Origin: Fluviicola sp.
GTDB lineage: Bacteria; Bacteroidota; Bacteroidia; Flavobacteriales_D; Crocinitomicaceae
Assembly: GCA_020849495.1 (NCBI GenBank)
Contig: JADLGD010000111.1
Span: 1 to 64,000, forward strand
DNA: 64,000 nucleotides
Direction of reading: 5' to 3'
A program made the position numbers and the translations under genes. The notes under the pieces are model-generated. The model saw nothing but the letters and a program-made list of their open reading frames with translations. It ran no database searches and was not told the origin of the DNA. Below, in pieces: positions 6,479-20,691 of this stretch. The first letter of the stretch is position 1. Each line of letters opens with the position of its first letter.

Positions 6479-6991
6479 TTATTCTTGTGTTTGTTTGTCG
6501 CGTTTCGCTAAAAGAACTGCACCTACCATTGCTGCGATGAACAAGATAGAAGACACTTCAAAAGGAAGCACGTATTTGGTAAAGAGTAATTCTCCTAAGT
6601 TTTCCACCAATCCTGCATTTTCAGAATTTGCGTCAATCATTGTAGGAGCTAAAACAGCATCACGAATTGCTGCAACTAAAACAGTCAACAAACCACCGGC
6701 TGCAATCACAGCACCGAAAGTCATTAAAATAGAGCCCTTCGGTTCGTTGGTTTTGTTTAAGTTGAGTAACATCAATACGAAAAGGAACAATACCATGATG
6801 GCACCGGCATAAACGATAATGTTTACAATTGCGATAAACTGTGCGTTCATCAACACGTAGTTCGCTGTGATCATAAAGAATGTCAACACAAGGAACAATA
6901 CGCTTCTCACAGGGTGTTTACTCAATACAACCATCAAAGCTGTACCGATTGTTAAACCACCAAGGAGCCAAAAAATCATTTCTAAACTCAT
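6479..6991 (-). CDS. nuoJ: NADH-quinone oxidoreductase subunit J
   Basis: [18 protein letters not shown] motif; operon position. Confidence 0.93.
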
Positions 6992-7530
6992 TATGCAGGG
7001 CGTTTTCCGGTTAATTGTCGTTTGGTAATATCTACGCGTTGATCCACTGGCTCTACCAATTTTTCTTTTCCGTAGATAAAGTCTTCACGCTCGAAGTAAG
7101 TAGGAACGATGCGATCTGTCAAGAAAATAGCCTCTTTCGGGCAAGCTTCTTCACACAAACCACAGAAGATGCAACGCAACATATTGATTTCATACATCGA
7201 TGCGTATTTCTCTTCGCGGTACAAGTTCTCTTCTCCTTTTTTGCGCTCAGCAGAAGTCATGGTAATTGCTTCAGCAGGACATGCTACTGCACACAATCCG
7301 CAAGCCGTACAGTTTTCTCTTCCTTGCTCATCACGTTTTAATACATGTTGACCACGGTAAACCGTTGCAAACTCGCGTTTTACTTCTGGGTATTTTGTGG
7401 TATTGTGTTTTCTGAATAAGTGTTTGAAGGTAATCCACATACCGCCAATGATAGCAGGTAAGTAGAGTTTTTCCATGAAACTCATTTTCTTATTCGAAAC
7501 AACTTTTTTGCGATTTGATAAACTTTCCAT
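6991..7530 (-). CDS. nuoI: NADH-quinone oxidoreductase subunit I
   Basis: Two 4Fe-4S motifs (CTACGLCAVACP, CIFCGLCEEACP). Confidence 0.96.
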   Translation of the reverse strand: MESLSNRKKVVSNKKMSFMEKLYLPAIIGGMWITFKHLFRKHNTTKYPEVKREFATVYRGQHVLKRDEQGRENCTACGLCAVACPAEAITMTSAERKKGEENLYREEKYASMYEINMLRCIFCGLCEEACPKEAIFLTDRIVPTYFEREDFIYGKEKLVEPVDQRVDITKRQLTGKRPA

Positions 7531-13318: not shown

Positions 13319-13862
13319 CTTCGTTCAAATGGTATTTGTTCAACAAATGTTTGTACTCATCTGAGTAGCGACGGCGCAATGATTCGTTTTTCACCATGCG
13401 GTGAATGTTCATCATCCCTTCAATGATTTGTTCCGGACGTGGCGGACAACCTGGTACGTAAACATCAACAGGAATGACACGGTCGATTCCTTGAAGCACT
13501 GAATACGTATCAAAAATACCTCCTGAGCAAGCGCAAGCACCAACCGACAAGACCCATTTAGGTTCAGCCATTTGTTCATACACTTGTTTCAATACTGGAG
13601 CTAATTTTTTAGAAATTGTTCCTGCTACAATCAACAAATCTGCTTGACGTGGAGAGAAGGACATACGTTCCATACCGAAACGTGCCACATCGTAATTAGA
13701 ACCCATGGTAGCCATGTATTCAATTCCACAACAAGAAGTTGCAAACGGTAGAGGCCACATGGAATTGGCACGTGCAGCACCAATTACTTTGTCCAAGACT
13801 GTGAGCTGGAAACCTTCACCATTGATGGTTTCAACACCGTGAATTTTTTCTACTTTTCCCAT
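13311..13862 (-). CDS. nuoB: NADH-quinone oxidoreductase subunit B
   Basis: [12 protein letters not shown] and [20 protein letters not shown]...[11 protein letters not shown] motifs. Confidence 0.97.
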
Positions 13863-14215
13863 TCTAAAGCGCCTTTTTTAAGTACATAGAAAAATCCTGT
13901 AAGGAAGAAGGCAACGAAGACAATTACCGCAATCAATCCATCAGCTTGTAGCGCTTTAAAGTTCACTGCATACGGGTAGAAGAAAATCACCTCTACGTCG
14001 AAAAGCATGAACAAAATTGCTGTTAGCAAATAACGGATTGAAATAGGGAAACGGGCATTTCCTACTTCTTCAATACCACATTCCCAATTGGAATTCTTCT
14101 TCTTTCCTTTCAAGTTGGGTCCAAGAAAGTGAGTGACTACTAATACTGTAACCACAAAACCCAGAGCCACAGCGGCTTGGATCAAAATCGGAACGTAATC
14201 TACTGGTGTAGACAT
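13850..14215 (-). CDS. nuoA: NADH-quinone oxidoreductase subunit A
   Basis: [35 protein letters not shown] motif. Confidence 0.96.
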
Positions 14216-14573: not shown

Positions 14574-15221
14574 TTAATAGTCTATATTAAATTCAGCTTG
14601 ACCATTGCCTGGAACATTCAAAATATTTGAAAATGAATTGCTTACCCCATTTCGTATAACAGTCCATTCAATAGAGTAACTTCCACTTGGAACTTTTGCA
14701 TAAGCACCATCATTATCATAACACCCTGTAAATGTAAAAGGTTGAAATACAGAAATCCCATTAAATGAAGTATAATTTCTTTTATAAATTAAAGAATCAT
14801 TTGAACCTTGACAATTTACATTATGTAGACTAATTTTTAATTCTCCATACGGCACTGCATAAAAATCTGCATGAAGTGTTTTTCCCATTTTTAATTTATA
14901 ATCTGTAGCAGCAGTTGAAATTTGCTGACCATTTTCAAACCACCCCAATTCATAATAATCAGCACTTGTGTTGCATTGTAAATAATACACATTAAGACCT
15001 GATTTTGAAATTTCAAAAAATCCGTCAGAATTACTTGTAGTTTCTTTCACACTTTTCTTACCTCCAGGCAAACCCAAAGTTGATTTTAACAATTTCATCT
15101 CCACATCTGGAATTCCTTCTCCTGTAATCGGGTTCATTACTCGACCTTTTGCAGTATGCGTGCGCCCAAATTTGGTACAGGATGTTAAAATTATAATCCC
15201 TGCAATTAAAATTACTCTCAT
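14574..15221 (-). CDS. Lipoprotein array member A (carboxypeptidase-regulatory-like N-module plus variable C-module)
   Basis: Lipobox ILTSC then TKFGRTHTAKGRVMNPITGEGIPDVEM...; tandem paralog. Confidence 0.8.
   Translation of the reverse strand: MRVILIAGIIILTSCTKFGRTHTAKGRVMNPITGEGIPDVEMKLLKSTLGLPGGKKSVKETTSNSDGFFEISKSGLNVYYLQCNTSADYYELGWFENGQQISTAATDYKLKMGKTLHADFYAVPYGELKISLHNVNCQGSNDSLIYKRNYTSFNGISVFQPFTFTGCYDNDGAYAKVPSGSYSIEWTVIRNGVSNSFSNILNVPGNGQAEFNIDY
14847..15181 (-). repeat. Homogenised N-module block, copy A
   Basis: About 335 bp with about 8 mismatches to copy B by eye. Confidence 0.85.
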
Positions 15222-15875
15222 CTAATAAAGCAGATCAAAGTTAGTTACTCCATTTTCGTTAACAAAAACGGTGTCATACTTATAAATAGTACCTGATGGT
15301 CTTTTTATTTTCATATAAATAATATGGTTACCCATTTCCATTTTGTCTGACCCATTTCCTATTATGTCTGCACACCCATCAATTGGAAATGACCAGAGGC
15401 TTAAAAAATCGCTGTCATACTGATACTTTATTTTATACCACATAGTATCTGTTGATCCTTCACAATTTACATTCTGAATATGCCAATGCAATTGGCCATA
15501 CGGCACTGCATAAAAATCTGCATGAAGTGTTTTTCCCATTTTTAATTTAAAATCTGTAGCAGCAGTTGAAATTTGCTGACCATTTTCAAACCACCCCAAT
15601 TCATAATAATCAGCACTTGTGTTGCATTGTAAATAATACACGTTAAGTCCTGATTTTGAAATTTCAAAAAATCCGTCAGAATTGCTTGTAGCTTCTTTCA
15701 CACTTTTCTTACCTCCAGGTAAACCCAATGTTGATTTTAACAATTTCATCTCCACATCTGGAATTCCTTCTCCTGTAATCGGGTTCATTACTCGACCTTT
15801 TGCAGTATGCGTGCGCCCAAATTTGGTGCAGGAAAGAAATGTTAAATGGATAAAAAATAGTATTATAAATTTCAT
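15222..15875 (-). CDS. Lipoprotein array member B
   Basis: Lipobox TFLSC; N-module almost identical to A and C; TAG immediately followed by ATG of A. Confidence 0.8.
   Translation of the reverse strand: MKFIILFFIHLTFLSCTKFGRTHTAKGRVMNPITGEGIPDVEMKLLKSTLGLPGGKKSVKEATSNSDGFFEISKSGLNVYYLQCNTSADYYELGWFENGQQISTAATDFKLKMGKTLHADFYAVPYGQLHWHIQNVNCEGSTDTMWYKIKYQYDSDFLSLWSFPIDGCADIIGNGSDKMEMGNHIIYMKIKRPSGTIYKYDTVFVNENGVTNFDLLY
15498..15832 (-). repeat. Homogenised N-module block, copy B
   Basis: About 335 bp, about 97% identical to A and to C by eye. Confidence 0.85.
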
Positions 15876-16573
15876 TAATAATTAATTGTTTGGATATTGT
15901 CTTGATTTGGTAAAACATCAAATGCGACATCAAATTCATTTGTGATTCCATTTCTAACTACCTTATAATGTGTGAAAATTGTTCCCATTGGGCATTTAGT
16001 AAAAGAAGAGTTAAAACCAGAACATCCAATTTGGATCCAATCTACTCCTAATAGTGAATTGACTTGATTTGTTTGATTAATTATAATCGAATCGTTTGGT
16101 CCTTGACAATTGATGTTGTTGAGTACAATTTTATAATTTCCATATGGCACTGCATAAAAATCTGCATGAAGTGTTTTTCCCATTTTTAGTTTATAATCTG
16201 TAGCAGCTGTTGAAATTTGATGACCATTTTCAAACCACCCCAATTCATAATAATCCGCACTTGTGTTGCATTGTAAATAATACACGTTAAGCCCTGATTT
16301 TGAAATTTCAAAAAATCCGTCAGAATTGCTTGTAGCTTCTTTCACACTTTTCTTACCTCCAGGTAAACCCAATGTTGATTTTAACAATTTCATTTCTACA
16401 TCTGGAATTCCTTCTCCTGTAATCGGGTTCATTACTCTACCTTTTGCAGTGTGCGTGCGCCCAAATTTGGTGCAGGAGAAAAGGAATGCTATAAAAAACA
16501 GGAAGAAGATTGGTTTCGTAACCGATGATGTATTAGAAACAATTGCAACATTTTCACTTTCAGCTGTAACCAT
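15875..16573 (-). CDS. Lipoprotein array member C (start codon uncertain)
   Basis: Lipobox FLFSC; N-module almost identical to A and B; the position matching the start of D is ACG. Confidence 0.7.
   Translation of the reverse strand: MVTAESENVAIVSNTSSVTKPIFFLFFIAFLFSCTKFGRTHTAKGRVMNPITGEGIPDVEMKLLKSTLGLPGGKKSVKEATSNSDGFFEISKSGLNVYYLQCNTSADYYELGWFENGHQISTAATDYKLKMGKTLHADFYAVPYGNYKIVLNNINCQGPNDSIIINQTNQVNSLLGVDWIQIGCSGFNSSFTKCPMGTIFTHYKVVRNGITNEFDVAFDVLPNQDNIQTINY
16142..16476 (-). repeat. Homogenised N-module block, copy C
   Basis: About 335 bp with about 11 mismatches to copy B by eye. Confidence 0.85.
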
Positions 16574-16586
16574 ATTTCAATTGAAT

Positions 16587-17207
16587 TTAGTAGTTGATGT
16601 TTATTTCACCGTATTCACCAGGCGACAAATCAATACTATCTATACCACTTGTAACTCCAGAACTTCTTGATACTGTCCATTGAAAATAACGTTTACCTGC
16701 AGGCACTTGAAAATAATCTCCGCCAATATTTGAAAAACAACCCATTATATCAAATGACCAACCTGTCCAATCACTATAGGTAAAACGATCTCTAACATTA
16801 AAAACATCATTAGGACCTTCACAATTTATATTCACAATATTTTGACGTAAAAACGCACACTCTGCAAACTCAAAAGTAAAAGTGCCATCATTATCGAATG
16901 GGCTATCAAAGGTTTGAACCAACATGTTGGTATAGCAATTATTTTCTGGTCCTTGAACGGCTACACTGTAGGTTCTTCCCGAACGTTGTTTAATAGCAAC
17001 CAAAACCTCTCCATTTGCATTCAAAGTTCCAGAAGCCTCTGTACGGTATTTTTCACCATCCCAACCTGTTTTAGATGATACAATGGAATACTCCAAACCA
17101 CTATAAGGCTGACCAGTTGCCGCATTTTTAGCAATGATTTTGATTTCTCTTTTTTTTCCGCAGGAGAAAAGGAATGCTATAAAAAACAGGAAGACGATTG
17201 GTTTCAT
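16587..17207 (-). CDS. Lipoprotein array member D (second N-module type, shared C-module)
   Basis: MKPIVFLFFIAFLFSCGKK; C-terminal NINCEGPND...GC...VPAG...NINY. Confidence 0.8.
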   Translation of the reverse strand: MKPIVFLFFIAFLFSCGKKREIKIIAKNAATGQPYSGLEYSIVSSKTGWDGEKYRTEASGTLNANGEVLVAIKQRSGRTYSVAVQGPENNCYTNMLVQTFDSPFDNDGTFTFEFAECAFLRQNIVNINCEGPNDVFNVRDRFTYSDWTGWSFDIMGCFSNIGGDYFQVPAGKRYFQWTVSRSSGVTSGIDSIDLSPGEYGEININY

Positions 17208-17825
17208 TTAATAATTCATCGTTATGGTTCCATTTGTTCCAGGTTGAAGAAATATACTATCCTTAAAATTTGTAACAACACCATTTCTATCTACAACCCA
17301 ATTGTAAATTCGCCAACCAGCGGGAACTTGAAAAAAATCTGGTGATAAATAGTTGTAGCAGCCAACTCTGTAGCTAGAAAAACTCTGCCATTCAGTGTAA
17401 GATTGTTTTGAACGAAAATGCATAGAATCACTTGGACCCTGACAATTGACATTATTGATGTTTAACTTCAAATAAGCACACTCTGCAAATTCGAAAGGGC
17501 ATTCAAATTTATCTTCAGTTCCAAGATAAAAAGTAATTTGTTTGTTGTAACAAGTATTTCCAGGCGGTTCAACTCGAACTGCATACGTTGAAGAGCGTGA
17601 TAAACGTTCAGTTAAAACGATTTCACCATTTTCATTCAAAGTGCCAGTAGCAATGGTCTTCGTTTTTTCACCACTACCCCCACTCGTAGAACGTACCAAG
17701 TAATAAGTTAAACCTGAATAGGGCACACCAGTAACCGCATTTTTTGCAGTGATATGAATAGTCGCTTTTTTTCCGCAGGAAGATAAGAGCAATACTATAA
17801 AAAACAGGACGACGATTGGTTTCAT
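17208..17825 (-). CDS. Lipoprotein array member E (second N-module type, shared C-module)
   Basis: MKPIVVLFFIVLLLSSCGKK; C-terminal NVNCQGPSD...GC...VPAG...TMNY. Confidence 0.8.
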   Translation of the reverse strand: MKPIVVLFFIVLLLSSCGKKATIHITAKNAVTGVPYSGLTYYLVRSTSGGSGEKTKTIATGTLNENGEIVLTERLSRSSTYAVRVEPPGNTCYNKQITFYLGTEDKFECPFEFAECAYLKLNINNVNCQGPSDSMHFRSKQSYTEWQSFSSYRVGCYNYLSPDFFQVPAGWRIYNWVVDRNGVVTNFKDSIFLQPGTNGTITMNY

Positions 17826-17932: not shown

Positions 17933-19762
17933 CTACAACTCCTCCTCACTCCCAGCATCGCCTCGAAGCGCTCTGAATCGCTTGCGTGCTTCAACCGTGA
18001 GTAAGCTGCCTTTATAGTCGAATAGAATTTTTTTGTAGAACTCTGCTGCCTTTTCTTTATCGTTCAAGTGCTTTTCATAAATCTCTGCCATTTGAAAAAC
18101 AGCATCGTCTGCAAGAATGTCTTCTTTGTGATCCACGGTGATTTTCTCTAAAAACACCAAGGCCTCGTTCCATTTACCTTGGTACTGCATGGCCAAGGCT
18201 CTGCGCAACAAAATTTCATCCGCTAAACCATGAAAAGGAAATGCGGCATTGATGGAATCAAACAAGCGAAAAGCGGCATCAAAACGGTGTTGCTCCAACA
18301 ACAAATCGGCCTGAGCAAACTGATACATCGCCGTATAATTGCTGTCCAAACCAAGATTATCCGTAATCAAGACAGAAAGCTTCATCGCGTCGTTTGCAAT
18401 CAATTTCGAAGTGGATTCTTTCAAGACATCCAATTGCGATTGCGCAAACTTAAAATCGCCATCGTAGTAAAAAATGCGGGCGTTTTTGTATTTCGCCTCC
18501 GAACCAATGGCTTCAAACTTGAAATCCGTATCCACTTGCATGTAATACAAGGAAGCTTGCCAAATGTCGTCTTGCAACACCAACACATCGGCTAATGTCA
18601 TTTTGATCTCAGCACGTTGCATATCGGTTAAACCGGGCATTTTCAAACAACTGTCCAACAATTGTCCCGCTTCTAATGCATCATTGCCATAATACGCCTG
18701 AATGGTTGCTAATTCTTTGGCAATTCCAACAGTATTTCGGTTCAAGCCTACATCGTTTAAAGCTTGTTTATATTCACTGATAGCAGCAGAAACGTCCGAC
18801 TCTTGGTATTTTTTCTCCAGTACTATTTCTCGGTAGCGCACATTCAACAAATCGGTATAAGCTCGGTAATACAAAGGAGCATCTTTCCCATAAGCCATCA
18901 CGTAATTGTAGGCCGCTCTAGCAGTAACGTAGTCTTGATTTTCGACAAATGTTTCCGCTAAATCCATTACACGTTGACCGTTTCCTTTTTCACGTTTATC
19001 CAATGCTTGCGCCTGATTCAATGCACTTTTGAATTCTTTTTTCTGAACAAACAACCAAATCAACATTTCAGCATAAACAGTTTCACCCGGTTTTTTCTGA
19101 ATGCGTGTAAGGAGTTTATCTTTCAATTTTTGGTAAACGCCGTTGTTGTCCTCTTGAAAATCGATTTGCTGCGACAAGGCTGTTTGGACCTGCGGGGCGT
19201 AATTCGGGAATTGATCAATGACATCAAAGTATTCGTCAATCATTTCATCTGTTCGACCCAATAAACTATACACTTCTGCAAATTGCAATTGCAAAGGGTA
19301 ATCTTTTTTCAATTCTTTGCGAGTGGCTTCCAAGGTTTTCAATCCCCAATCTACTTTGCCTCTTCGAATGAAATTGGAATACAATTCCACCGCTTGGTAG
19401 CCATTACTAGAAGTAGATTTAATCAAATCGCCAAATAATTTATTCGCTTGATCTTGCTTTTGATTGCGTTCGTAAAAATCGCCCAACAAGATGATGTATT
19501 CCAAATCACCTTCGTTGCTACTCACCTGTTTCTTGAGGACTTTTTCCGCTTCTTTGAGTTGGTTGGTTTTCTCCAAACATTCCACATAGCGCAAGACTTC
19601 AAACTTCGGACTTTGCTTGTTGATGATTTTCTCAAAATAGGTCAAGGCTTTATCAAACTCGCCATTGGTGTAGTACAAATTCGCCAATTGCTGATCGGTG
19701 CTTGTTTGAGCAAACATTCCTTGAGCAACAAATAGAAAAAAAATGACTAAAATACCTTTCAT
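17933..19762 (-). CDS. Secreted tetratricopeptide repeat protein
   Basis: 609 aa; signal peptide; repeated TPR-like helices (LANLYYTNGEFDKALTYFEKII, AVFQMAEIYEKHLNDKEKAAEFYKKIL). Confidence 0.85.
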   Translation of the reverse strand: MKGILVIFFLFVAQGMFAQTSTDQQLANLYYTNGEFDKALTYFEKIINKQSPKFEVLRYVECLEKTNQLKEAEKVLKKQVSSNEGDLEYIILLGDFYERNQKQDQANKLFGDLIKSTSSNGYQAVELYSNFIRRGKVDWGLKTLEATRKELKKDYPLQLQFAEVYSLLGRTDEMIDEYFDVIDQFPNYAPQVQTALSQQIDFQEDNNGVYQKLKDKLLTRIQKKPGETVYAEMLIWLFVQKKEFKSALNQAQALDKREKGNGQRVMDLAETFVENQDYVTARAAYNYVMAYGKDAPLYYRAYTDLLNVRYREIVLEKKYQESDVSAAISEYKQALNDVGLNRNTVGIAKELATIQAYYGNDALEAGQLLDSCLKMPGLTDMQRAEIKMTLADVLVLQDDIWQASLYYMQVDTDFKFEAIGSEAKYKNARIFYYDGDFKFAQSQLDVLKESTSKLIANDAMKLSVLITDNLGLDSNYTAMYQFAQADLLLEQHRFDAAFRLFDSINAAFPFHGLADEILLRRALAMQYQGKWNEALVFLEKITVDHKEDILADDAVFQMAEIYEKHLNDKEKAAEFYKKILFDYKGSLLTVEARKRFRALRGDAGSEEEL

Positions 19763-20552: not shown

Positions 20553-20691
20553 TTGCTGACTGAGGTTCTCGAAGTCAGCAATCGGATTTTCTGGATTTCT
20601 GGATTTCGTTACTTCGCAATATTGCGAAATTCCTAATTTCAGAATAAGCGAAATCCTGCTACCCGAACGCATCGAACTAGCAGGATTTCGC
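20553..20691. repeat. Cluster of three perfect inverted repeats
   Basis: TTGCTGACT..AGTCAGCAA (20553-20581); TTCGCAATATTGCGAA (20613-20628); GCGAAATCCTGCTA-N16-TAGCAGGATTTCGC (20648-20691). Confidence 0.8.

Follow-up and report, generated by a model that had tools for sequence, protein, structure and literature searches.

In the clustered protocadherins of vertebrates, gene conversion homogenises one part of each tandem gene and leaves another part diverse; these are eukaryotic cell-adhesion proteins, and they serve here as an analogy only. Among bacteria, the closest known kinds to the locus described below are recombining tandem arrays of lipoprotein or immunity genes. TipC arrays of Streptococcus, which belong with the TelC toxin of the T7SS, consist of tandem, copy-variable, membrane-anchored paralogues (predicted lipoproteins) behind an exported envelope-acting enzyme, and their copies recombine via conserved blocks, a likeness to the present array that is drawn from description (PMC9484751; PMC6193138). 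Tandem recombining immunity genes are also known from the EsaG strings of Staphylococcus aureus, in which non-identical copies recombine via conserved blocks, and the lpl lipoprotein genes of the S. aureus nuSa-alpha island are likewise in tandem with a conserved segment that drives recombination (PMC9484751). Here, we describe a lipoprotein array of Fluviicola sp. in a window of 64,000 nucleotides, by which we mean the whole stretch of DNA analysed (assembly GCA_020849495.1, contig JADLGD010000111.1).

Layout of the array

Five lipoprotein genes, A to E, are found among the open reading frames of the window at 14574-17825, all on the minus strand. The features of the site are as follows:

13850..14215, minus strand: nuoA, the downstream border of the array site, likewise in L026, L034 and L040
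14574..15221, minus strand: gene A, a 215-aa lipoprotein; N-module 14844-15179, C-module of alpha type 14577-14843
15222..15875, minus strand: gene B, 217 aa; N-module 15495-15830, C-module of QLHW type 15225-15494
15875..16573, minus strand: gene C, 232 aa as called; N-module 16139-16474, C-module of NYK type 15878-16138
16459..16520, minus strand: signal-peptide segment of gene C, a near copy of 17147-17208 of gene D (repeat family D2)
16587..17207, minus strand: gene D, 206 aa; N-module (CGKKREI..., unlike A-C) 16854-17162, C-module 16590-16853
17208..17825, minus strand: gene E, 205 aa; N-module (CGKKATI...) 17475-17777, C-module 17211-17474
17933..19762, minus strand: TPR gene, the upstream border of the array site, likewise in L026, L034 and L040

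A preliminary description made from the sequence had recognised an array of three genes; A, B and C are indeed minus-strand open reading frames where it had placed them, and D and E had escaped it. All five copies are complete and intact, lie in one orientation and are tightly packed. The C-modules of D and E belong to the same family as those of A-C (N-[VI]-N-C-x-G-x-x-D ... G-C ... G ... Y), and it is the N-module that differs. The alpha C-type of gene A is shared with L021, L022, L024, L025 and L026, and the QLHW type of gene B with L024 and L031 (genome G005).

In all of these genes the signal peptide is closed by the lipobox cysteine, which is of the LFSC, LVSC or ATSC kind across 109 homologues. 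The signal peptides of A-C had been described as different from one another, to which it must be added that the signal peptide of C is 81% identical over 62 nt to that of D (16459-16520 vs 17147-17208). Since this D-like signal peptide precedes an N-module of the A/B type, gene C is a three-piece mosaic. It carries ACG where D has its start codon ATG (window 16510-16573), and its sole in-frame ATG, about 18 codons upstream, places an unusual polar stretch of N-terminal sequence ahead of the signal peptide; the start codon may have shifted, or C may be a weakly expressed copy. Elsewhere in the window, an overlapping 30-nt palindrome, 80% complementary, is located in intergenic DNA at 20597-20644.

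Two modules with two histories

The near-identical block that had been noticed in A, B and C, with about 8 (A/B) and 11 (B/C) mismatches by eye, corresponds to the N-module, over the 336 nt of which we counted 9 mismatches for A/B, 12 for B/C and 16 for A/C (97.3, 96.4 and 95.2% identity). The differences are nearly all synonymous (dN 0.008, dS 0.10-0.23, omega 0.03-0.07). The C-modules of the same three genes share 22-34% amino acid identity, in keeping with the strong divergence of the C-termini that had been reported. The block had been said to run from the lipobox cysteine to VPYG with abrupt ends, and sliding-window identity bears this out: it falls from 93-100% to about 45-50% within about 30 nt of the lipobox cysteine, and within about 30-90 nt of VPYG at the other edge, the slower drop there being due to conservation of the first C-module residues, NxNCxGxxD. 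The N-modules of D and E have near relatives elsewhere in the genome, in an array on a different contig: that of E is 94% identical in nucleotides to L028:2342-2953 and that of D is 91% identical to L028:1657-2274, and in both cases the likeness is confined to the N-module.

Close homologues were found in Fluviicola and Brumimicrobium, and the genome that holds the window belongs to one genus with the Fluviicola genomes compared. A profile search with the C-module detected the lipoprotein family in 44 of 200 Crocinitomicaceae genomes, and in a phylum-wide sample of 297 Bacteroidota genomes it detected none except in the genome of the window itself; the C-module is nearly always the C-terminal half of a protein of 200-260 aa. 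Over a comparison set of 109 homologues in 38 arrays, mean within-array identity is 71% for N-modules and 41% for C-modules, and the N-modules are the more alike in 28 of the 30 arrays holding at least two genes. Trees were made for the Fluviicola-type subset (26 genes, 8 arrays, 6 C-types). In the N tree the genes group almost without exception by array, with 7 array-label changes for 8 arrays, which is the minimum, and 19 C-type changes; the C tree sorts perfectly by type, with 5 type changes for 6 C-types, again the minimum, and 17 array changes. Forcing the six alpha-type genes together is rejected by the N data in an AU test (p-AU 3e-6), and forcing A-C of the window together is rejected by the C data (p-AU 1e-76). 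Discrete C-types are common to different species, and N-modules are alike inside one array: alpha C-modules are 74-93% identical in amino acids across species, the N-modules of those same pairs 36-88%, and the median pN/pS of C-types across species is 0.20. From the incongruence of the two trees, the cross-species identity of C-modules and their pN/pS, it can be read at the sequence level that the C-types are old, conserved and reassorted, and that the N-modules are levelled within arrays by local gene conversion.

Local conversion of the N-module, one of two alternatives raised in the preliminary description, is thus upheld by the trees and the AU tests. The other, replacement or diversification of the C-module, holds in so far as C-modules reassort among genes and arrays; the types themselves are old and conserved across species, so a recently diversified, hypervariable tip is ruled out. 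Collapse of copies during assembly was also considered and rejected, as the identical pattern appears in a single-contig genome (G013) and several others, and so was carriage by phage, no relatives having been found among the viral contigs searched.

Mosaics can be followed at the DNA level in relatives. In the array of Fluviicola chungangensis (G012; L024/L041), genes L024:7579 and 10231 have different N-modules, but from where these end, across the C-module and well beyond the stop codon, their identity is 96-100%; genes 8251 and 10906 are near identical upstream and as far as the N-module reaches, and have unrelated C-types; and 11519 resembles 12168 only upstream, in the signal peptide and in the initial portion of the N-module. 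Tracts about 335 nt long that match the extent of the N-module recur in G013, and breakpoints of nucleotide mosaics lie at module borders, including the N/C junction, in several genomes. Truncated copies consisting of an N-module only, possibly leftovers of recombination, occur at the downstream end of arrays (L021:8080-8430 and, in G006, C2:449676-449909), one of them with stop codons. A lipoprotein at L030/L045:1086-1616 has a C-module that breaks into a short tandem repeat (QISNIKYQISNIKY...).

Fold and localisation

A model of gene A (pLDDT 87) has two beta-sandwich domains, in which C137 and C167, invariant across the family alignment, may pair. Among solved structures, the nearest folds are stalk domains of Ig-like or prealbumin-like type from pilins and adhesins, together with DUF3823 lipoproteins (4eiu, 4yok). 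The N-domain has a weak profile match to CarboxypepD_reg/SpaA-type prealbumin-like domains (PF13620, PF17802) that stays below the Pfam cut-offs, and the C-domain has no Pfam match exceeding its cut-off; searches of PADLOC, NCBIfam and PDB sequences gave nothing useful for the lipoproteins. The modelled fold would imply an envelope stalk or binding domain, and nothing further.

Surface export of Bacteroidota lipoproteins depends on a signal (LES) of acidic residues just after the cysteine, K-(D/E)2 or SDD-like (PMC5080379). At least two acidic residues at +2 to +6 are present in one of the 109 homologues. The acidic LES rule may not apply here, because a SusD homologue of the genus (CKKQLNL) lacks them likewise.

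The unit of fibre, BIG and lipoproteins

The neighbourhood of the arrays in relatives, with linked exported esterase-like and fibre-like genes, was missed by the preliminary description. Most relatives' arrays show the order of a fibre-like gene, a gene for a protein of about 950 aa, here called BIG, and the lipoprotein genes directly after it; BIG overlaps the first lipoprotein gene by at least 4 nt in nearly all BIG units. A C-terminal Por_Secre_tail was found in BIG (PF18962 above its cut-off in 4 of 5 scanned, TIGR04183 in 3 of 3), a sorting domain by which BIG of the relatives is predicted to be type A cargo of the type IX secretion system (T9SS). Its core has the motifs KP[FYV]I..., ENIIxGxSxG and GANxP, in this order. 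The nucleophile serine is kept in all 20 units and GxSxG in most; glycines flanking the serine are changed in four (GSSMS/ASSMS/AASMS). One BIG matched PF05057, a putative serine esterase family, with 22.9 bits against a cut-off of 20.3, and PGAP1 came just below threshold. The core is therefore assigned as a putative alpha/beta serine hydrolase, esterase-like, on profile and motif, the structure prediction from four sequences having a pLDDT of 34.

Presence of BIG and of the lipoprotein family is associated over 200 genomes of the bacterial family (both in 26, BIG only in 4, lipoproteins only in 18, neither in 152; Fisher p 6e-17). As for the four BIG-only genomes, a divergent family gene lies behind BIG in L069 and L084, L083 is at a contig edge, and L082 is a real exception, a fibre-BIG unit with its serine retained and no family gene behind. 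Among the poorest-scoring matches to the BIG core, L085, L087 and L088 represent other hydrolases and have no fibre gene. The site between the TPR gene and nuoA is occupied by a fibre-BIG-lipoprotein unit in G006 (L026) and G007 (L034), and has no unit in G012 (L040). The array of the window is without BIG, and the only BIG of its genome is on a different contig, beside an array of its own. Such orphan arrays are common (the window, L028, L035, L038 and others), so BIG is not essential to them. BIG genes are split or fragmented in L039 (211+722 aa), L061 (523+430 aa), L052 and contigs of G005, where they adjoin lipoprotein genes that are wholly or partly intact. A second family of small lipoproteins (MKxLFxLL...ACTITKRHFGxGYHVEW) was seen downstream of several arrays and, in L066, between genes:

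L041:13457-14113, second-family lipoprotein
L023:8809-9498, second-family lipoprotein
L061:4594-5277, second-family lipoprotein
L066:5337-6011 and 6823-7518, second-family lipoproteins

Which module follows BIG? In CTKFG-type units, similarity of the N-module of the first gene tracks that of BIG (rho 0.64, p 0.005), and for its C-module no such relation is seen (rho -0.11, p 0.61). When all 20 units are taken together, rho is 0.56 for N and 0.39 for C, and the bootstrap interval of the difference between them includes zero. The fibre was tried as a partner of the N-module and rejected, fibre similarity not tracking the N-modules (Mantel rho 0.006).

Possible functions of the array

We tentatively favour the view, over that of a TipC-like immunity array, that the array encodes lipid-anchored adaptors with interchangeable heads, grouped around the exported esterase-like BIG. 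The products would be small envelope proteins held by a lipid anchor, each of two beta-sandwich domains. The membrane-proximal N-domain is kept uniform by gene conversion within an array, and in this genome between loci too. Each gene carries a head, a C-domain drawn from a limited and ancient set whose members are conserved from species to species and have been reassorted through recombination at two points, the lipobox and the N/C junction. Selection would maintain the differences between heads, since conversion would otherwise have levelled these too. The N-domain would fit a shared partner, for which the type IX-exported BIG, with its gene immediately upstream in most relatives, is the likeliest candidate, and each head would bind a ligand, substrate or competitor protein of its own. 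The array of the window would have lost its own fibre-BIG pair, or never had one, and would represent an orphan repertoire. Our preference stays tentative because co-inheritance alone could produce the identical correlation of N-module and BIG, once conversion has made the N-module a trait of a single locus. The wider picture of an envelope system of Crocinitomicaceae with one enzyme and many heads, in which a recombining repertoire of adaptors, with a shared enzyme-docking domain and interchangeable, species-crossing recognition domains, serves a T9SS esterase-like protein, is possible, and we put it forward with more reserve.

An immunity array is rather unlikely. In this model BIG would be exported to act as an esterase against other bacteria, and the lipoproteins would confer immunity, one protecting against self and the others against the variants of neighbours. 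The overlapping order of BIG followed by a lipoprotein gene agrees with it, as do a family gene behind nearly every fibre-BIG unit, the 18 of 44 family-positive genomes that have no BIG, the existence of orphan arrays and the precedent of recombining immunity genes in tandem (PMC9484751). However, the variable part of the BIG-adjacent gene does not match the type of BIG in CTKFG-type units; it is the N-module, not the C-type, that tracks BIG there, which disfavours the simplest form of the model. Moreover, BIG diverges gradually, unlike a polymorphic toxin module, the L082 unit retains the serine in spite of having no family gene, no toxicity is known for BIG and a PADLOC search gave no match.

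Ordinary concerted evolution without any special function, conversion acting where copies are still alike and C-modules drifting beyond the limit of homology, is improbable. Conversion requires homology, which makes N-only tracts self-reinforcing, and the block edges coincide with the loss of homology; tract ends alone do not prove selection, as edges mark the end of homology as well. Nevertheless, the C-types are discrete, conserved across species and move among arrays with different N-modules, and the C-module recombines too, as in the identical C-modules of L024:7579 and 10231, which are joined to different N-modules.

An antigenic role had been entertained in the preliminary description. 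A surface coat, antigenic or phase-variable, that draws on a single expressed cassette and several silent ones is suggested by the tandem arrangement, the variable outer half of the lipoproteins and the recombination among copies. It is scarcely credible, because the five complete, co-oriented and tightly packed open reading frames of the window do not form a vls-like layout of an expression site with silent promoterless cassettes, and the C-types, far from being hypervariable, are stable from one species to the next. A role in recognition or competition, proposed at the same time, is possible.

Comparison with known arrays

In TipC, conserved blocks flank a variable middle, whereas the present array has two whole domains, one homogenised and one in discrete cross-species types; the exported gene linked to such arrays in relatives encodes a T9SS esterase-like protein, and immunity is putative. 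EsaG strings consist of nuclease immunity genes that recombine by way of three short blocks, and no such two-domain architecture is described for them in PMC9484751. The lpl genes differ in having a conserved central block of about 130 nt, and PMC9484751 describes neither an exported enzyme nor a fibre gene linked to them. Our searches turned up no earlier description of the family, of its two-domain logic or of its connection with an esterase-like type IX protein. This lipoprotein family of Crocinitomicaceae, linked to type IX cargo, bears on the question whether the T9SS has a part in recognition or competition between bacteria. Because the C-types are finite and common to several species, ligand specificity can be tested head by head. 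Set beside these recombining arrays, the locus offers a clear bacterial case of the halves of one small protein under opposite rules in one array, the N-module homogenised and old C-types maintained.
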